Part shown: piece after piece, positions 8,894-38,181 of the stretch | Layout of the letters: each line of letters opens with the position of its first letter | Position numbering within the stretch: position 1 is the stretch's first letter | Source: an uncultured Cellvibrionales bacterium | GTDB taxonomy: Bacteria; Pseudomonadota; Gammaproteobacteria; Pseudomonadales; Cellvibrionaceae | Direction of reading: 5' to 3' | Assembly (NCBI GenBank): GCA_913020395.1 | Contig: CAJWCA010000004.1 | Location: forward strand, 1 to 38,181 | Length of the DNA: 38,181 bases | Notes under the pieces: generated by a model | What the model saw: only the letters and a program-made list of their open reading frames with translations | What the model was told of the DNA's origin: nothing | The model's database searches: none | Position numbers and translations under genes: made by a program

Positions 8894-10768
8894 ATGATAA
8901 ACCCAGCCCAAAAAGAGCCTTGTCACTTGTCAGGATGGATGGCCAAAAAGAACGCCCATACCTTGAGCACCTCATTGCTGCTGGCGGTGTTCAGCTTTGT
9001 GTTATTAACCTTTGGGCCCTGGCCAAATGTCTTAGACAGATATTTCCAGGATGGCTTGATTAAAAAACGCGCCGCCCTGCATAAACCCTCGGAAGAGATC
9101 ATCGTTATCGACATCGATGATACCAGCCTGAGTGCTCTGGCGCCTGTTGTTGGCAAATGGCCCTGGCCAAGGTCGGTGCACGCAGAACTTTTGGAATACA
9201 TTTTAGCCCACAACCCTCGGGCAGTTATCTTCGACATTCTGTTTAGCGAGGAAGATCGTTTTCGCCCCGATGGCGACCGTTACTTCGAAGAAGTGATCGC
9301 CAGTCAAAACAATGTCTATCTGGCGGCACTGGAACAAACCCTGGTTAATCCGGCTCAGGCGCCTTTATTGGCTAGCTATCCGGCGAATGCCGGTATTGAA
9401 AAACACCCTGGGGCCAGTATCGCTCAAAGAGCTCAGTTACTTTTGCCGAAAGCGATTTCCAATGATTTTTGGCGCCTTGGCCTTATCAACCTGACCGCTG
9501 ACGACGACGGCCGCAGTCGTCGATACAAACTCTATCACGACTGGCAGGGCTGGAGAATGCCAACAATGGCGGCAAAAGTCGTTTCAGACCTCTCCGTCGA
9601 GTTGCCCAATACTGCCTCTATTCACATAGCATGGGCGGGCGCAGACGCCGTTAGCTTTTCACGTTTATCCTTTGCTACTTTATTAAGCCAAGCCAGAGGC
9701 GAACAACATGCGGTGCCAAAGGAGCTGCTACAGAACCGAATCATTATCATTGGCAGCACGGCCTCGGGCCTACACGACTTGAGAGACACACCTATCTCAT
9801 CTTTTCATCCCGGCTCTTTTATTCTAGCGTCCGCTCTCGACAATTTGCTGAATGGTGAGCAACTAGCGCCGCCACACAAGATTGCCAGTTTCACGGTGGG
9901 TCTTTTTCTACTCGCTTTTTGCTATCTGTTATTGACCCGGTTGTCGCTCGTGCCAGCGTTATGTGGGTCTGTTACAGCAATGATTGCCTTAGTGATTTAC
10001 AGCGCGTATTCGCTGATCCAACATGACCGTATTTTCTTAACCACACCCATCTTATGTTCAATCCTGATTTTGTTAACCGCCAGTGTTCTAACAATTCATT
10101 CCAAAAACCGCGCGCGTTACCAGACCCTCATAAACAAGTTTAAAAACCTGGTAGACCCCGAAGTCGTCAAACAGATACTGGAAACCGATAATCCTGAGAG
10201 CCTGCTTGCCAGTAAGAACTGTAAAATAACGGTTTTATTCTCCGATATCCGAGGCTTTACGCAACTTTCTGAATCGCGAGCACCTACGGAGGTTGTCAAT
10301 CTATTAAACCGGTATTTTGAATTGCAGCTTTCCACACTATTCGAGCATAAAGCGACATTAGATAAGTTTATTGGCGATGCAGTTATGGCTTTTTGGGGGG
10401 CTCCGATTGACTGCGATAATCAGGCTGAACTCGCTATCGCTGCCGCATTGGACATGATTGATAATCTTGAAAGTTTTAAGCAGCAATACGCTTATAAGAA
10501 TTTCGATATAGGCATCGGAATACACACAGGAGACGCCGTGGTAGGAATGGTGGGCACTCCTCAGCGCTATGACTATACTGCAATTGGAGACAGTGTAAAT
10601 GTTGCCAGTCGCGTAGAGGGTTTAACGAAAAACAGAGCAACACTGCTTGTGTCCGAAAGCACCATGTTAGAGACCAAGTCGCTATTTGAGTTCACCCACT
10701 GCGGCGAATTTCAAGTCAAGGGCAGATCAGAACCGGTCAATGTCTACGAGGTAAACAGGAGAGAGTAA
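8894..10768 (+). CDS. CHASE2-domain class III adenylate/guanylate cyclase
   Basis: N-terminal CHASE2-like region (IIVIDIDDTSLSALAPVVGKWPWPRSVHAELL), three TM helices, cyclase domain (TVLFSDIRGFTQLSE, DKFIGDAVMAFWGAP, GIGIHTGDAVVGMVGTPQRYDYTAIGDSVNVASR). ATG at 8894 preferred to 8756. Confidence 0.9.
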   Translation: MINPAQKEPCHLSGWMAKKNAHTLSTSLLLAVFSFVLLTFGPWPNVLDRYFQDGLIKKRAALHKPSEEIIVIDIDDTSLSALAPVVGKWPWPRSVHAELLEYILAHNPRAVIFDILFSEEDRFRPDGDRYFEEVIASQNNVYLAALEQTLVNPAQAPLLASYPANAGIEKHPGASIAQRAQLLLPKAISNDFWRLGLINLTADDDGRSRRYKLYHDWQGWRMPTMAAKVVSDLSVELPNTASIHIAWAGADAVSFSRLSFATLLSQARGEQHAVPKELLQNRIIIIGSTASGLHDLRDTPISSFHPGSFILASALDNLLNGEQLAPPHKIASFTVGLFLLAFCYLLLTRLSLVPALCGSVTAMIALVIYSAYSLIQHDRIFLTTPILCSILILLTASVLTIHSKNRARYQTLINKFKNLVDPEVVKQILETDNPESLLASKNCKITVLFSDIRGFTQLSESRAPTEVVNLLNRYFELQLSTLFEHKATLDKFIGDAVMAFWGAPIDCDNQAELAIAAALDMIDNLESFKQQYAYKNFDIGIGIHTGDAVVGMVGTPQRYDYTAIGDSVNVASRVEGLTKNRATLLVSESTMLETKSLFEFTHCGEFQVKGRSEPVNVYEVNRRE

Positions 10769-29569: not shown

Positions 29570-29855
29570 TAAGTACATCTCCTGAAAACACCGACACCCC
29601 CTGAGTATAGAACGTCGGTGGAAGTGGCTAGGAACAAAATGCTATAAAGAACACACTCAAATACCCTCTGCCGTAGGCCAGAAAACCATAAATCTTGAAG
29701 GGGCTTTTAATAGTGGCCAGCTGGATCGAGCTGTCTAAACCCTCGGTTTGGAGGGTCAATTCTTGTCATTTTTTTCTAACTACTTTATTGTGCAGGGTGT
29801 TGGCACCCTGAAGAATCACCCTTCAATTAACCCAGTCACCCTCACTGACCCGCTT

Positions 29856-31715
29856 ATGGCTCTCAAATTACTGATCGGTTTTACCTGCTTGCTGATTTTC
29901 AACCAGAGCAATGCCGACGTCGCCACATCGCTCCGGGACATGGAACCTTCAATCTATACCAATGCTCAGCAAAGCCTGGACGATTTAGCCGTGTTGGAAA
30001 AAGACCTCGCCAATGCTCCGCCAGACAACAAAATCTGGTTTCATATACGCAAGGCGCAAGCGGAATTTCTGTTACTGCTGTTTGACCCAATGGCCAACTC
30101 ACTCTCAAAGGCCAATGCGCTGCTAACACCAGACAGCGATGAAGAGCTGAAGGTGCTTTTACTCTTTCTCAAGGGTCTTCACGCACAGAGCCAGGACTCC
30201 TTAACAATCGCCAAGGTGCGCTTTGTTGATGCACAGCGAAAAGCTGCAGCAGCAAACCTGGACCGCCTGGCGCTGCATTCAGCCGCGCAACTGGCATACA
30301 CCTATACAGTGCAAGACGACCACGAAAATGCACTTTTTGTTAATAATGACGCACACTTGAAAGCCCTGAGTAGTGGCGATCATTTCATGATTGCCAAAAC
30401 TAATTATGTCTATGGCGCCACCTTCCTCCAACTGAACCAATTCCAGCAATCCATCGACTACAACATTAAGGCGCTCGAGTTGTTCGAAACACTTGGGTAC
30501 CAACACCATATTTCTGAGGCCCTTCTCGGTATCGCAGCAGCTTATCGTTACTGGGGTAAATTTGATGAGGCCCTTAACTATTACTCCCGCTATCTAAAGT
30601 CCCTCATGTTTATTAAGAGCGAGGAGAGCAAATACCATGCCTATCATGGCATTGCCTCCACGCTGGCCGAAATGGGTAAATGTGCCGAGGCGCTCACTGC
30701 CATCGACCGCGCATTGTCAGCAAAATCACAACAGCTGGGGTGGGATGCCGAACTCTACAAGAAGCAGGCCTTATGTCACGTTGAACTGGGTAATACCGTT
30801 TCGGCAGACACATCCTTTAAATTGGCCCAAACACTCTATGAGATACTGCCAGACCTCAAAGGCACCGTCTGGGAGATAGAAATGCTCCGAGTAGAGGCGG
30901 AGGTTGAAAAGTCTAAAGGGCACCATAAAAAGGCGCTCGCATTGCTCACGGGGTACTACGAACAAACCATAAAACTGGAAGAAAAAAACCATTCTGGTCA
31001 ACTCCTGCGAGCAAGAGAGGCCCTCGAGAGCCAACGAAAAGACCTTGAAATTCAGCTATTGAAAGGTCAGCAGGAAACACAACGCCTTTTACTCGCGAGC
31101 GAAGATCGCGAAGGTTTTCACAAAAAAGTCATCGCATCCCTTTCTGCTGTTGCTCTTCTGCTCATCGGCTTATTAACGATTTCAGGATATCGAAACAACC
31201 GCCGCCTCCATGCGGCTTCGATTGCCGACGATCTATCTGGTCTTTACAATCGGCGCCATACCTTTGAGAGCCTTGAAGAAAAAATAAAATCAGGGAAAGA
31301 GACGTCAAGCCCATTATCCACACTCCTGGTCGATGTGGATGACCTTAAAGTTATTAACGATCTATACGGCTTTAACTCCGGCGACTCTGTCATTCACAGT
31401 GTGTCAAAGCTCTGCGCCGATTCAACCAGAGAATACGACATATTAGGCAGAACGTGCGGAGGAGAATTCTTATTTATTCTTCCCGACACCAGTCCGGATG
31501 ACAGCGAAAAATTAGCCCTGCAATTATTGGATACCATCAAGAAGAAGATTTTCATACTGCCCTCCGGGAAGACGATCAACATCACTGTCAGCATGGGAGT
31601 TTGCCACCAAAAAAATCCAGTGCTATCGGCAGGCGAGCTCTATCGCAGAGCCGACATAGCGCTTGCCCTATCCAAAGCGCAGGGAAAAAATAGACTTAAT
31701 ATCGCTGAGGGTTAG
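29856..31715 (+). CDS. TPR-repeat membrane protein with degenerate GGDEF domain
   Basis: Signal peptide after ATG 29856; TPR-like repeats; TM (KVIASLSAVALLLIGLLTISGY); GGDEF-type domain (DDLSGLYNRRH, LLVDVDDLKVINDLYGFNSGD, REYDILGRTCGGEFLFILPDT). Confidence 0.88.
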   Translation: MALKLLIGFTCLLIFNQSNADVATSLRDMEPSIYTNAQQSLDDLAVLEKDLANAPPDNKIWFHIRKAQAEFLLLLFDPMANSLSKANALLTPDSDEELKVLLLFLKGLHAQSQDSLTIAKVRFVDAQRKAAAANLDRLALHSAAQLAYTYTVQDDHENALFVNNDAHLKALSSGDHFMIAKTNYVYGATFLQLNQFQQSIDYNIKALELFETLGYQHHISEALLGIAAAYRYWGKFDEALNYYSRYLKSLMFIKSEESKYHAYHGIASTLAEMGKCAEALTAIDRALSAKSQQLGWDAELYKKQALCHVELGNTVSADTSFKLAQTLYEILPDLKGTVWEIEMLRVEAEVEKSKGHHKKALALLTGYYEQTIKLEEKNHSGQLLRAREALESQRKDLEIQLLKGQQETQRLLLASEDREGFHKKVIASLSAVALLLIGLLTISGYRNNRRLHAASIADDLSGLYNRRHTFESLEEKIKSGKETSSPLSTLLVDVDDLKVINDLYGFNSGDSVIHSVSKLCADSTREYDILGRTCGGEFLFILPDTSPDDSEKLALQLLDTIKKKIFILPSGKTINITVSMGVCHQKNPVLSAGELYRRADIALALSKAQGKNRLNIAEG

Positions 31716-31734
31716 AGGGGGTATAGACCGGAAG

Positions 31735-32829
31735 TTACGTCAACTCACTCTCCTTTGCCTGCTTTATTGCCTGTGCCCACAAGGTCTTAATCATCGACTC
31801 AGACAAGCCTTTGTCTTTCAGTAATTCTAAGGACTCCTGCTCATCCCGGGCGCCCTGGCTACACAACAACGCTGCTGTTCCCACCAACCGGCCATAATAA
31901 AGTGTTCGCGCTAGACTCCCCATTTTATTCACCGACGTTTTTTTTCTGGTCTGCTGTAAGGCCAGCAAAACGTCTTCGCCCAGTTTCCAATCCGTGGCTA
32001 TAAACTTGCTCACCTCTAAAGAGTGCGACTCAAAAACTTTAACGAGAAACAGTGGACTGAGTTCCGCATTAGAATGGGAACGTTGGAAATCCGCCGCCAG
32101 TCGAAGCAGCACGGTGTAGGAAATACTGGTCAACAGACTAAAAAAATGCGCAGAGAAACTATCATAACTGCCCGTAGATTCGGCATAATGCTTCGATGCT
32201 TCGGCCGCCAACACAGCCTGCGACCAATAGAAACGCGAGAAATCTTTAAATGCCCCTTCTGGCACATAAAATACAGGGTGCATGATTGTGGCGCTCATCA
32301 GCGATCTCAAACCCTGCTCGCCCAACAGCACAACCGCTCTTTCGATACTGTCAACCGCCTTAACGCCACTGCGATAATAGGAGCTATTTGCCATTTTTAT
32401 GACATTGCCGGTTAACACTGGATCTTGGCTCAGCACATTGGTCAGGTCTTTAACGCTGCTCTTATCGTCACGCATAATTCGCAACAACTGTGGCAGCAGC
32501 TGCGGCCTTCGCGGGAAATACTTTTCATTCTTAACGGACCTCGGTAATTCCTTTGCAATATTTTTTATGAGGGCCACCTGATTAGACGTCAATGGTTGCT
32601 GGAAATTTATCTCACCCAGTGCCAGTTGATACATCGCAATTTTTAAAGCCGTTGAGCGCTGGCACTGGAATACAATATCCTGACCGGAAGAGGTCTTTTC
32701 ATCTCGTTCGTTTTTCTTGTTATTGTTAGTTGGCACCTCCTTCTTTTGACGTTTTAGAATAAACACGCCTAAAGCAAACACTCCGAGAATGCCCCCTGCC
32801 AGTACTCCCCATTCACTTACCGTATTCAA
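31735..32829 (-). CDS. HDOD-domain protein with N-terminal TM helix
   Basis: LPQLLRIMRDDKSSVKDLTNVLSQDPVLTGNVIKMANSSYYRSGVKAVDSIERAVVLLGEQGLRSLMSATIMHPVF. Confidence 0.88.
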   Translation of the reverse strand: MNTVSEWGVLAGGILGVFALGVFILKRQKKEVPTNNNKKNERDEKTSSGQDIVFQCQRSTALKIAMYQLALGEINFQQPLTSNQVALIKNIAKELPRSVKNEKYFPRRPQLLPQLLRIMRDDKSSVKDLTNVLSQDPVLTGNVIKMANSSYYRSGVKAVDSIERAVVLLGEQGLRSLMSATIMHPVFYVPEGAFKDFSRFYWSQAVLAAEASKHYAESTGSYDSFSAHFFSLLTSISYTVLLRLAADFQRSHSNAELSPLFLVKVFESHSLEVSKFIATDWKLGEDVLLALQQTRKKTSVNKMGSLARTLYYGRLVGTAALLCSQGARDEQESLELLKDKGLSESMIKTLWAQAIKQAKESELT

Positions 32830-32874: not shown

Positions 32875-34260
32875 TCAAAACGTTAGCGCAATCCTTACAC
32901 CTTTATTTTCAACAGACGTTCTGTCGCTGGCACTGAGCGACACTGACCCTCCGTGCGCGATCATCACCTGCCGTGTCAACGCCAAACCCACCCCAGAACC
33001 TTCCCTCTTGGTGGTAAAGAAGGGAACAAAGACTTTTTCAAGTATCTCCTCTGAGACCCCCGGGCCATTATCCACCACTTCCATCACAACATGACCTCGC
33101 CGATTTATCCGGGCACTCACCTTCACCTCAGCATCTATGCGCCCAGCAAGTGCCTGTTCCGAATTTCGCAGCAAATTGATCAACACCTGTTCTATCATGT
33201 CCCCGTCGACTTCCAGGCTTAACGTCTCCGGCTCAACCATCGTTGACAGGGTAATTCCCTGTGTCTGCCAATCCGCCGACACCAGACGGGAGACGCGGGA
33301 AAAAACTTCATCAATTTTCACAAGGCCTTTTTGGGGCGCGGGCAAACGAGTCAATCTACGGTAGCTCTGCACAAAGTTCATTAAACTGTCAGAGCGGCGG
33401 GCCACCGTATCGACCGCACTTTTTATATCAGTCAGCTCCTCCAACACCTGCTCAACACCTTCAGTTCCCTTTAGCGCCTCTACCTGCTTCGTCGCGTCTT
33501 CAACCAGGTCGGTAGTTGTTTTTGCCAGGGACGCCACCGGCGTAATACTATTCATAATCTCGTGGGTCAGTACACGAACCAAGTCCTGCCAGGCCTTGAG
33601 TTGTGCTCCGTCGAGTTCGCTCTGTATGTCCTGAAGGCTGATCAGCTTCTCTACTTGATGACCAAGCGTTATATTGGTGGACGCGACCGACAAACGTTTT
33701 TCAACATCGTCAACAACAAACGTCACCAAGTGTCGATCACCGGGAGACAGGCTTCCAATGTCATGTTTAAAATCCTGGCCAAACTGACCCAGATCTTCTA
33801 GATGGCCAACCTGCGTATTGCCAAATAAACGTCTAGCGGCATTGTTGTGGATATTTATCTCGCCATCATTCTGCAGCGACACCAGCGGTACTGGCACATG
33901 TTCAACCAGCGCTTTCAGGTGCCTGAGTTCCTGTTCCTGCTCTTGCCTGGACAAACGGAATCGCTCCATAATCTCCGATAAGGTCGACCCCAATTCATCA
34001 AATCCTGCACCCTCATTTTTCATTTGAAAACGTTGGCTAAAATCGGCGTAACGAGCCGCTTCAAAAAAGCGCGTCAGTTCCGCATTGGTTTTACTCACAA
34101 AACGTAATGCTTCAATGAGTTGTACGACAACCGCCAGTAAAACTATTAAAGAGAGTGTTGGATACGATCGCTGGCTGCTGATCCATACCAACGCCAATAA
34201 CGAAACCCCTAAAAGAACCACCCTCAGGGAGATATAAAAGGCAAAGCGCTTAAAGCCCAT
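32875..34260 (-). CDS. Sensor histidine kinase (NtrY/AtoS-like) with HAMP/PAS-like region
   Basis: WQDLVRVLTHEIMNSITPVASL (H box), LINLLRNSEQAL (N), VVDNGPGVSEEILEKVFVPFFTTKREGSGVGLALTRQVMIAHGGSVSL. Confidence 0.93.
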   Translation of the reverse strand: MGFKRFAFYISLRVVLLGVSLLALVWISSQRSYPTLSLIVLLAVVVQLIEALRFVSKTNAELTRFFEAARYADFSQRFQMKNEGAGFDELGSTLSEIMERFRLSRQEQEQELRHLKALVEHVPVPLVSLQNDGEINIHNNAARRLFGNTQVGHLEDLGQFGQDFKHDIGSLSPGDRHLVTFVVDDVEKRLSVASTNITLGHQVEKLISLQDIQSELDGAQLKAWQDLVRVLTHEIMNSITPVASLAKTTTDLVEDATKQVEALKGTEGVEQVLEELTDIKSAVDTVARRSDSLMNFVQSYRRLTRLPAPQKGLVKIDEVFSRVSRLVSADWQTQGITLSTMVEPETLSLEVDGDMIEQVLINLLRNSEQALAGRIDAEVKVSARINRRGHVVMEVVDNGPGVSEEILEKVFVPFFTTKREGSGVGLALTRQVMIAHGGSVSLSASDRTSVENKGVRIALTF

Positions 34261-35662
34261 ATTTTTCCATCCGCCGATAAAGTGCCGCTCGCGTCAAACC
34301 CAGGTCTTTTGCCGCATGGCTAATATTGTAGCGATGTAATTTTAACACTCGTGTAATGGTGCGTTGCTCCATTCTCTCCAGGTTGAAATCAGCAGACTCG
34401 GTTATTGCCCCATCCACTCTATCCTCCTGCGCCGCAGGATAGGTCAACTTAACTTCAGCGGGCGTCAATTGAAGATCAGACACCTCCAGCTGCGGTCCAT
34501 CGGCGAGAATCACCGCTCTTTCAATGGCGTGCCTCAATGCCCTGATATTTCCCGGCCAACTGTATTCACGAGAAGCCTGAAGTGCCATTGGCGACAGGCC
34601 TTTAACCGACTTGCGGTATTTACGGGCATAGAAACCGGCGTAGAATTCTGCAATCTCTTCAATATCGTCAGGTCGATCCTTCAGTGGCGGCAGATGTATC
34701 TCCACGGTATTAAGGCGAAATAACAAATCCTGCCTGAACAGTGTCTCATCCTGCAATTTCTGTCGTGGCACATTAGTGGCGGCAACAACTCTGACATCAA
34801 TGGCAACAGGCGAATTGGCGCCAAGGGGCGTCACTTCCCTTTGCTCTAGAATAGTTAACAATTTGGCCTGCAAGGAAAGCGGAATGTTGCCAATTTCATC
34901 TAAAAACAAGGTGCCGCCATTAGCCGCTTCCAAACGACCCACCCGGTCTTGCTGAGCACCCGTAAACGCCCCTTTTTTGTGACCAAACAATTCCGATTCA
35001 AACAGGGATTCCGACAGGGCACCCAGATCAACGGACATAAAAATCTCTTCGCTGCGCTGACTTTGCCGGTGAACATCGCGGGCGGCCAATTCCTTTCCCG
35101 TGCCGTTTTCACCGAGAATAAGCACATTGGCATCGGTGGGTGCGGCACGTGTGATCATCTCACTCACATCGCGCATTGCCTTGGAACACCCCAAGATTGG
35201 CTGAGCTGAAGCGCCGGAGACCTCTGCCAGTAGTTTATTGCTCTGTTTAAGGTGCTCCGCCTCAGACCGGGTCGCCCTCAATTGAGTTGCAGAGGAGAGC
35301 GTGGCTACGACCTTTTCGTTTTGCCAGGGTTTGGCGACAAAGTCTGTTGCACCATATTTCATCGCCTCGACCGCAATATCCACTCCACCGTGGGCCGTGA
35401 TCATTACCACCACTGCATCGGGGTCAATTGACATGATCTTTTTCAACCAGAAGAAACCCTGCTCGCCCGTGCTTTCGCCAGGCGAAAAATTCATATCCAG
35501 TAAAATCGCATCAAATCGACTGGCGGCCATTAACTCGGGGATCGCCCCGGGCGTTGAACACGTCACGACCTCCGCAAAATGTCGTTTCAGCAATAATTTG
35601 CCCGCCATTAGGATGTCTTCATCGTCATCAACGATGAGTACTCGCCGTTCTTTTTGTGTCAC
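34250..35662 (-). CDS. Sigma-54-dependent response regulator (NtrC family)
   Basis: REC (LIVDDDEDIL..ILLDMNF), AAA+ (GENGTGKELAARDVH, GAFTGAQ sigma-54 loop, GTLFLDEIG), C-terminal Fis HTH (NISHAAKDLGLTRAALYRRMEKYGL). Confidence 0.95.
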   Translation of the reverse strand: MTQKERRVLIVDDDEDILMAGKLLLKRHFAEVVTCSTPGAIPELMAASRFDAILLDMNFSPGESTGEQGFFWLKKIMSIDPDAVVVMITAHGGVDIAVEAMKYGATDFVAKPWQNEKVVATLSSATQLRATRSEAEHLKQSNKLLAEVSGASAQPILGCSKAMRDVSEMITRAAPTDANVLILGENGTGKELAARDVHRQSQRSEEIFMSVDLGALSESLFESELFGHKKGAFTGAQQDRVGRLEAANGGTLFLDEIGNIPLSLQAKLLTILEQREVTPLGANSPVAIDVRVVAATNVPRQKLQDETLFRQDLLFRLNTVEIHLPPLKDRPDDIEEIAEFYAGFYARKYRKSVKGLSPMALQASREYSWPGNIRALRHAIERAVILADGPQLEVSDLQLTPAEVKLTYPAAQEDRVDGAITESADFNLERMEQRTITRVLKLHRYNISHAAKDLGLTRAALYRRMEKYGL

Positions 35663-35689: not shown

Positions 35690-35751
35690 CTGTTCATTAT
35701 CGTACAGCCTGTGTTCGATTTCGTACACCCTCACTGTTCACTATCGGACAG
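35690..35751. promoter_or_regulatory. Three phased 18-bp repeats, candidate UAS sites for the NtrC-family regulator
   Basis: 35690-35707 CTGTTCATTATCGTACAG; 35711-35728 GTGTTCGATTTCGTACAC; 35734-35751 CTGTTCACTATCGGACAG. Confidence 0.78.
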
Positions 35752-35801
35752 ACCCGAGAAGAAACATTAAAATATACAGCAAAAACAATAACTTACGGTT
35801 G

Positions 35802-35817
35802 TGGCACGGGTTTTGTA
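35802..35817 (+). promoter_or_regulatory. Sigma-54 (-24/-12) promoter TGGCACGGGTTTTGTA
   Basis: TGGCAC-N5-TTGTA; GG and GT separated by 10 bp; one mismatch from the TGGCAC-N5-TTGCA consensus. Confidence 0.75.
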
Positions 35818-35878: not shown

Positions 35879-37195
35879 ATGGCTAGTATCACCAACCTTG
35901 AAAAAGTGACTGACACTGTTTCCCAGCCTACACAGACACCCGGCATGGATCGAAAAATTGAAAAGCGGGGCATTGGCAAGCGCAACAAGATGATAGTCGG
36001 CGTATTGGGTGCAGCCCTTATTGCCTACCTGACGCTGGGGCAAATGTTCCAGGGACGCAGCATGACCGTCAACGGCCAACGACTGTCTATCGCGACGGTC
36101 AAGGCAGGCACCTTTGAGGACTTCATTCCTCTTCGAGGCCGAGTGGCTCCACTGAAGACCGTTTATCTCGATGCAGTACAAGGTGGCAGAATTGAAGAAA
36201 TATTGCTGGAAGATGGCGCATTGATCACTGTGGGGCAACCCATTATTCGCCTCTCAAATTCCGACCTTCAACTCAGCGTCATGAGCACTGAGTCCCGTGT
36301 TATGGAACAGCTAAATGCGATGCGTGACCAGGAGTTACGCCTGGAACAAAATCGACTGGGACACAAACGGACACTCGTCGACCTGAACTACAACATTCGG
36401 AAACTTAGCAGAGACCTCAGCCGTCAAAAAGAGTTGTTCGACAAAGGCCATATCTCGCTCGCCGAGTACGAAGATTTTGTTGACCAGGTGCAATACTACA
36501 AAGAAACAAGAGATGTCACGCTGGAAAGCCAGTCTTCAGACGAAAAGCTAATGGCCTCTCAACTCCAGTTTTTTCAAAGCAAAACTATCGCGATGGAAGA
36601 AAATCTGGCTTTTGCCCGCAAGAGCCTGGACGAGCTGAATGTGCGCGCCCCAGTCGCTGGCAAGCTCTCGGGTTTTGATCTCGAAATTGGACAAAATATT
36701 ACCCGCGGTACCCGTATCGGCCAGATCGACAACCCCGACTCTTTTAAATTGGTGGCCAATATTGACGAATTTTATCTTGGGCGCGTGGATTTGGAGCAGC
36801 CCGTAGCTTTAACTCACAATGGCAAGCCCTACCTCCTAAATGTCGCAAAAATATATCCCGACGTGAAAAATGGTCAGTTTGAAGTTGATCTTCATTTTAA
36901 TGGCGAGATGCCAACAGGTATTCGTCGCGGTCAGACCATCCAGGCGAAGCTGACCCTGGGAGATGCCAACCAGGCAAGATTGATCCCAAAAGGCAACTTC
37001 CTCCAGGAAACCGGTGGTCAATGGCTGTTTGTGATGAACGCCGAAGGCACAGAGGCGCTACGACGCGAAGTTCGCCTGGGGCGTCGCAACAATGAATTTG
37101 TAGAAGTTTTGGAAGGTTTGGATGCCGGTGAAAAAGTCATTGTGTCCTCATATTCAACGTTCGAAGAAATGGATCGTGTTCAACTTAGCCAATAA
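35879..37195 (+). CDS. Membrane fusion (HlyD/MacA-like) periplasmic adaptor
   Basis: N-terminal TM; FIPLRGRVAPLKTVYLDAVQGGRIEEILLEDGALITVGQPIIRL; coiled coil; VRAPVAGKLSGFDLEIGQNITRGTRIGQID. Confidence 0.88.
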   Translation: MASITNLEKVTDTVSQPTQTPGMDRKIEKRGIGKRNKMIVGVLGAALIAYLTLGQMFQGRSMTVNGQRLSIATVKAGTFEDFIPLRGRVAPLKTVYLDAVQGGRIEEILLEDGALITVGQPIIRLSNSDLQLSVMSTESRVMEQLNAMRDQELRLEQNRLGHKRTLVDLNYNIRKLSRDLSRQKELFDKGHISLAEYEDFVDQVQYYKETRDVTLESQSSDEKLMASQLQFFQSKTIAMEENLAFARKSLDELNVRAPVAGKLSGFDLEIGQNITRGTRIGQIDNPDSFKLVANIDEFYLGRVDLEQPVALTHNGKPYLLNVAKIYPDVKNGQFEVDLHFNGEMPTGIRRGQTIQAKLTLGDANQARLIPKGNFLQETGGQWLFVMNAEGTEALRREVRLGRRNNEFVEVLEGLDAGEKVIVSSYSTFEEMDRVQLSQ

Positions 37196-37231: not shown

Positions 37232-37915
37232 ATGTTAAAACTACACAACCTGTCCAAAGTTTACCGCACAGACGAAGTGGAAACGGTCGCCCTGAATGAA
37301 GTTAATATCGAAATTGAAAAAGGTGAATTTGTTGCCATCATGGGGCCTTCTGGGTGCGGTAAATCAACATTGCTGAATATCATAGGAATGTTAGATACAC
37401 CCGCAAGCGGCCAGTATCATTTTGGTAATCAGGAAATATCATCGTTAAATGAAAGCAAACTCAGTAAAGTCAGAAAACACAACGTGGGTTTTATTTTCCA
37501 AAGTTTTAATTTAATCGATGAACTATCTGTTGAAGAGAACATTGAACTCGCCCTACTCTACCACGAGATTCCCGCATCGGAACGAAAAGAACGTGTTCGC
37601 AAGGTAATGGACAAAGTGGGCATTGCGCACCGGGCAAAACATATGCCGGGTCAATTGTCGGGCGGACAGCAACAACGCGTGGCGGTCGCCCGCGCCGTAG
37701 TTGGCAATCAATCCCTTATTCTGGCAGACGAACCCACCGGAAACCTGGACAGTGCCCACGGCCAGGAAGTGATGGAAATGTTACAGGCACTGAATGAAGA
37801 GGGCACCACTATTGTTATGGTCACCCACTCCGCCGCCCATGCAGACTACGCCCGTCGCACAATCAATTTATTTGATGGACAGGTAGTTACCGAAAGCCTG
37901 CGCGCAGCGTCCTAA
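37232..37915 (+). CDS. ABC transporter ATP-binding protein (MacB/LolD type)
   Basis: Walker A GPSGCGKST, signature LSGGQQQRVAVARA, Walker B LILADEPTGNLD, H-loop VTHSA. Confidence 0.95.
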   Translation: MLKLHNLSKVYRTDEVETVALNEVNIEIEKGEFVAIMGPSGCGKSTLLNIIGMLDTPASGQYHFGNQEISSLNESKLSKVRKHNVGFIFQSFNLIDELSVEENIELALLYHEIPASERKERVRKVMDKVGIAHRAKHMPGQLSGGQQQRVAVARAVVGNQSLILADEPTGNLDSAHGQEVMEMLQALNEEGTTIVMVTHSAAHADYARRTINLFDGQVVTESLRAAS

Positions 37916-37940: not shown

Positions 37941-38181
37941 ATGTTTTCAAGTTACATAAAACTGGCAATTCGAAACCTGCAAAAAAACAGGCTCTATGCC
38001 GCGATTAATGTATTTGGCCTGGCTATTGGCCTGACGGTCTACCTGATGGGGAACATACTGGGTAGTTATGAAAATAATCACGACAGCATGTTTAAGAACC
38101 GCGACCGAACCTACACGGTGGGCGCAGAGTTTAGCCCTGATGCCAACATCGGAGTATCGGGCACCGACGGCGTTCAAAGTG
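37941..38181 (+). CDS. FtsX/MacB-type ABC transporter permease, truncated by window end
   Basis: Not in the ORF track because it runs off the edge: MFSSYIKLAIRNLQKNRLYAAINVFGLAIGLTVYLMGNILGSYENNHD...; AAAGGAGG RBS upstream. Confidence 0.85.
   Translation, partial: MFSSYIKLAIRNLQKNRLYAAINVFGLAIGLTVYLMGNILGSYENNHDSMFKNRDRTYTVGAEFSPDANIGVSGTDGVQS

Follow-up and report, generated by a model that had tools for sequence, protein, structure and literature searches.

A response-regulator gene (34250-35662, minus strand) and an adaptor gene (35879-37195, plus strand) are separated by 216 bp, within which lie three palindromic operators, an IHF-like site and a -24/-12 element; these very probably form a sigma-54-dependent enhancer promoter activating an exporter operon. 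Because many related bacteria share this layout, sequence data suffice to assign the regulator, the operator code and the one operon under its control. We have high confidence that the observation is real and functionally interpretable.

According to the proposed mechanism, a membrane kinase (32875-34260) would sense a signal and phosphorylate the response regulator (34250-35662), which would then bind two or three TGTNCG-N4-CGNACA palindromes as dimers and oligomerise. IHF, at about 35783-35795, would bend the DNA loop and thereby allow the regulator to contact RNA polymerase-sigma-54 at 35802-35817, and the opening of this promoter would switch on the adaptor-ATPase-permease exporter operon. 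Such a scheme follows the general behaviour of bEBPs, which bind upstream activating sites and loop DNA with the aid of IHF (PMC7175178).

Genes of the Two-Component System and the Exporter

The window, which is the whole 38,181-nucleotide stretch of DNA that was analysed, makes up a complete contig in a draft assembly of 402 contigs. A sensor histidine kinase gene (32875-34260, minus strand), recognized by its HATPase_c domain (Pfam) and by an H-box motif, LTHEIMN, in its translation, shares 11 bp with the regulator gene, and kinase orthologs adjoin the regulator gene in relatives as well. The regulator possesses the domain order of group I (response-regulator) bEBPs, namely a receiver (Response_reg, residues 8-122), a sigma-54 AAA+ domain (Sigma54_activat, 156-323) and a Fis-type HTH (HTH_8, 428-468), all above the Pfam gathering score, which bears out the first-pass annotation's description of the adjacent gene as encoding a GAFTGA-containing activator of the NtrC family. 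D12-D14 and D56 are invariant in an alignment of 17 proteins, and both the phosphoacceptor aspartate and the GAFTGA loop that characterize group I bEBPs are present. The solved structure with the best score to the regulator, 4l4u, is also an NtrC-family regulator. No NCBIfam model names the protein, the best matches (AtoC, NtrC, ZraR and PEP_resp_reg) being far below their cut-offs.

On the other side of the gap, the adaptor gene encodes a periplasmic protein of HlyD/MacA type, which is DarC-like and is matched by HlyD_3 (Pfam) and, above cut-off, by RND_mfp (NCBIfam). It is followed on the same strand by a gene for a DarD-like ABC ATPase of MacB/LolD type (37232-37915, ABC_tran in Pfam) and by the start of a gene for an FtsX/MacB-type permease (37941-38181), which is open at its 3' end because the window is one whole contig and the contig ends there. 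The rest of the permease gene is carried by a congener, G001, which shares 90% identity in the adaptor, 95% in the ATPase and 96% in the permease start, and a domain search of complete permease orthologs found MacB_PCD and FtsX domains, each twice. By homology, these three genes are a putative exporter ('efflux') operon. Beyond the kinase gene, 29748-32829 is occupied by two genes, one of TPR-GGDEF type (a diguanylate cyclase) and one with an HDOD domain (Pfam); they probably lie outside the exporter module, since G001 has other genes downstream of its kinase.

Operators, Promoter and IHF-like Site in the Window

The first-pass annotation had reported three 18-bp palindromes starting at 35690, 35711 and 35734, and these positions proved exact, all three fitting the consensus that it gave. 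Operator 1 (CTGTTCATTATCGTACAG, 35690-35707), operator 2 (GTGTTCGATTTCGTACAC, 35711-35728) and operator 3 (CTGTTCACTATCGGACAG, 35734-35751) are centred at about -129, -108 and -85 from the predicted transcription start, i.e., they are dyad sites within the range of about 80-150 bp upstream, and they show helical phasing across orthologs. They are the only exact matches to TGTTCNNNNTCGNACA within 38 kb. A weight matrix trained without the window's genus ranks them first to third in 38 kb, with 23.7, 20.1 and 19.5 bits, while the next-best score in the window is 7.2 bits and 0.005 sites of operator strength are expected per 38 kb. Operator 2, at 23.7 bits, is the best match to the family consensus; operator 1 is kept in orthologs, and operator 3 is optional in the family, about ten relatives having a counterpart 23-24 bp beyond operator 2. 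The spacing had been described as about two helical turns, which holds for the 21 bp between sites 1 and 2, but the 23 bp between sites 2 and 3 amount to about 2.2 turns, which gives the third site a poorer phase. The assembly of G001 breaks exactly within the triple operator, and the end of its contig C22 and the start of its contig C21 both carry the repeats.

A TGGCAC-N5-TTGTA promoter, also reported earlier, was confirmed at 35802-35817 on the plus strand (TGGCACGGGTTTTGTA), 51 bp past the end of site 3 and 67 bp from its start, with transcription predicted to begin at about 35828. Nowhere else in the window is TGGCACNNNNNTTGYW matched exactly, and when one mismatch is allowed the number of matches is at chance level. 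Compared with TGGCAC-N5-TTGCW, its -12 element deviates by GT in place of the usual GC at -13/-12, and most orthologs are closer to the consensus. The form TTGTA is common to the window, G001 and G032 (loci L010 and L080), a recurrence which indicates that GT for GC is tolerated and retained. The genome possesses rpoN, detected as one Sigma54_DBD match on contig C96.

Between the operators and the promoter lies an IHF-like site, AAACAATAACTTA (35783-35795, plus strand), which is absent from the first-pass annotation. It has one mismatch to the IHF consensus, WATCAANNNNTTR. The match in the window is non-significant alone (p 0.08), and the congener G001 carries an exact one, AATCAATGGCTTA. In most loci, WATCAANNNNTTR or a one-mismatch form of it starts 17-19 bp upstream of the TGG, while G033, G058 and the clades around them have the site reversed, at 30-31 bp. 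When one value per genus was compared with mononucleotide shuffles, the combined p for an IHF-like site at a fixed position was 8e-8. An IHF site between activating sites and promoter is a common, though not a universal, element of sigma-54 enhancer promoters. As well, ihfA was found in the genome.

Conservation of the Operators and Target Range

Orthologous loci were collected by whole-genome searches with the regulator and cover more than 20 genera, with regulator identities of mostly 50-86%; loci from Sphingomonadales, Massilia and Pelomonas, among the matches listed, were added from a named collection of contigs. At the loci examined at length, the kinase-regulator pair is divergent from the adaptor-ATPase-permease genes, and the intergenic regions carry TGTNCG-N4-CGNACA palindromes, of which the first pair is 21 bp apart almost everywhere and an optional third follows 23-24 bp further on. 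Exceptions to the first-pair spacing are Massilia (24 bp), Pelomonas (23 bp) and the class of loci represented by G173 (L173, 22 bp), and in G155 the middle palindrome has been lost, leaving two that are 44 bp apart.

The presence of the operator pair follows the relatedness of the regulator. A strict pair is located upstream of 19/20 regulators with at least 60% identity and of 11/23 with 50-60%, and this frequency falls to 1/18 at 45-50%, 2/21 at 40-45% and 0/67 below 40%. Within single genomes, a pair with at most one mismatch marks this locus in 11 of the 12 genomes that were searched, the pair of the remaining one, G033, having two mismatches. The sole other pair of this quality among the 12 genomes is a single-mismatch match in G399, which contains a GTTCGAATCC stretch that seems to resemble a tRNA T-arm. 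Pairs with two mismatches are about as frequent in these 12 genomes as matches to a reversed control pattern, giving no sign of a wider regulon. Thus, the genome-wide search with the 18-bp motif that had been recommended to define the regulon, once run, yielded essentially no target beyond this locus, and the regulator appears dedicated to one operon, because near-exact operator pairs mark essentially this locus only. Exact single-site matches at C45 and C116 were dropped as targets because they lie inside long open frames.

These data bear on the question of which protein the palindromes serve. Many regulators use palindromes of such a general kind, and the sites might belong to another, unlinked transcription factor, e.g., a repressor, with the adjacent regulator binding elsewhere. 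We regard this as quite improbable, because the operator pair stands upstream of the close orthologs of the regulator and is absent upstream of its paralogs, occurs almost nowhere else in each genome, and keeps a helically phased distance to the sigma-54 promoter. Moreover, the Gram-positive LexA box, CGAAC-N4-GTTCG, has its half-sites the other way round from the GTTCG...CGAAC found here, and a LexA-type box was rejected on this order. The earlier proposal that regulator, operator and target can be assigned from sequence is strongly supported by the near-uniqueness of the operator pair in 12 genomes, together with the additional IHF-like site and the presence of rpoN and ihfA.

Helical Phasing of Operators and Promoter

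Across the orthologous loci, palindrome 2 and the -24 element are separated by about 57, 67-70, 78-80 or 89-92 bp, with no values in between, and these classes differ by about one helical turn; the congener G001 has 90 bp, the same as the window. For 20 genus-level values, Rayleigh R is 0.82 at a period of 10.5 bp and 0.90 at 11.25 bp, and 0 of 5000 uniform draws were as strong, a p-value that is optimistic because the loci share ancestry. Four loci have a single strong palindrome; for these, a position 21 bp on was taken for the second, by which the phase is hardly altered. It is the stepwise change from one distance class to the next that constitutes the evidence of phasing. With conserved pairs and promoter, a phased distance and an operator that tracks the regulator, the layout is that of an NtrC-family upstream activating site with a sigma-54 promoter, as had been put forward.

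The same geometry helps to decide which of the two divergent genes is served. The operators begin 27 bp from the start codon of the regulator gene in the window, and 18-100 bp from it across orthologs, so a bound protein would sit on or near the regulator promoter, and the sites could mainly control the regulator gene by auto-repression or auto-activation, with control of the exporter being secondary. This reading is very improbable, since stepwise spacing is kept to the exporter promoter, whereas no such constraint is seen on the distance to the regulator start, and neither a sigma-70-like nor a sigma-54-like promoter stands out on the regulator strand of 25 orthologs. The suggestion in the first-pass annotation that the sites may also autoregulate the divergent regulator gene therefore agrees with the 27-bp geometry, but found no counterpart in a detectable promoter on that strand, and autoregulation beside the activation of the exporter operon is possible on geometric grounds.

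Least credible of all is that an ordinary sigma-70 promoter drives the exporter and that the -24/-12 match is fortuitous, since the off-consensus TTGTA of the window, which would speak for it, recurs in G001 and G032, the 9/12 sigma-70-like match at 35745-35773 is at about chance level, and an aligned -24/-12 element, picked by score alone, is present at phased distances from the operators in 27/34 orthologous regions, while 1% of shuffled regions score as high.

A Second Exporter Module with a Different Operator Code

The same genome carries a second exporter module on contig C95 (L041, G000:C95, 1-6960), the regulator of which is 41% identical to the one described above. Its genes are arranged on one strand in the order kinase-side gene, regulator, permease, ATPase and adaptor. 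Upstream of the adaptor gene, we found a sigma-54 promoter, TGGCACGGTTTTGGCT, an IHF match, TATCAATCACTTA, which was read by eye and is exact, and the palindromes TTCCCGCTGGCGGGAA and TTCCCAGCAGTGGGAC, which are of the type TTCCC-N6-GGGAA and, in this genome, about 22 bp apart as judged by eye. The module architecture thus seems to be general, with an operator code that differs between paralogous modules, which suggests that modules within one genome are insulated from each other by their codes.

Relation to Known Systems

Similar to the systems of NtrC, ZraR and AtoC (PMC7175178), the present one combines a regulator of receiver-AAA+(GAFTGA)-HTH type with paired palindromes, an IHF-like site and a -24/-12 promoter, but its operator sequence and its target are different, and its regulator stays far below the NCBIfam cut-offs of that group. 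The exporter shares its composition of adaptor, ATPase and FtsX/MacB_PCD permease with the darobactin exporter DarBCD and with MacAB-type tripartite pumps, and the closest curated names for its genes are those of the darobactin exporter subunits. All of these remain below cut-off, with 225 of 450 bits for DarC and 282 of 375 bits for DarD in the window, and 99-125 of 700 bits for DarB in the ortholog permeases, which places the operon outside DarBCD. Unlike in DarBCD and MacAB, the permease here is of a duplicated type of 800-835 aa, and no gene for a peptide precursor came to attention in the neighbourhood.

Sigma-54 has been proposed as a controller of the cell exterior (PMC3162934), and a survey from 2025 reported sigma-54 promoters to be enriched before FtsX-like permeases (COG0577), which was termed the first evidence of such a link (PMC12316311). 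In that survey, permeases of this class are predicted to be under sigma-54 control in Gammaproteobacteria, Opitutia and Bacteroidia; neither upstream activating sites nor IHF nor a divergent regulator is mentioned in its main text, and the operator code, the phasing and the one-target wiring are added here, so that its suggestion of sigma-54 control over FtsX-type exporters gains a concrete case. A search of the open-licence literature found no description of the regulator-exporter pair.

The mechanism is classical sigma-54 enhancer activation, while the operator code is newly readable and the phasing evidence is unusually clear. On balance, we are inclined to see in these loci a widespread, undescribed module of Gamma-, Alpha- and Betaproteobacteria, and possibly of Bacteroidota, in which an NtrC-type two-component system would control a single exporter of FtsX/MacB type by means of an operator code of its own and a rigid geometry of operators, IHF site and promoter, with paralogous modules insulated by their codes (TGTNCG-N4-CGNACA versus TTCCC-N6-GGGAA). 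Activator, operator and target could be assigned from sequence alone for a two-component family to which none of the curated models gives a name above its cut-off. Moreover, distances which change only in steps of about one turn provide a clean demonstration, by natural variation, of how helical phasing enters into the action of enhancers. With the conserved cis code, further genomes can be searched for this module, and one can ask which envelope stress or peptide triggers it.

Two further observations were made in relatives. In locus L081 (G155), a 284-aa membrane protein of another type is located in the adaptor slot, at about 9400-10600, while the ATPase and the permease are kept, as are the sigma-54 promoter and operators 1 and 3. 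Finally, the Bacteroidota loci L090, L093 and L087 (about 4 kb) carry single or loosely paired TGTNCG-N4-CGNACA palindromes upstream of regulators with about 50% identity, hinting that the operator code may extend to a second phylum.
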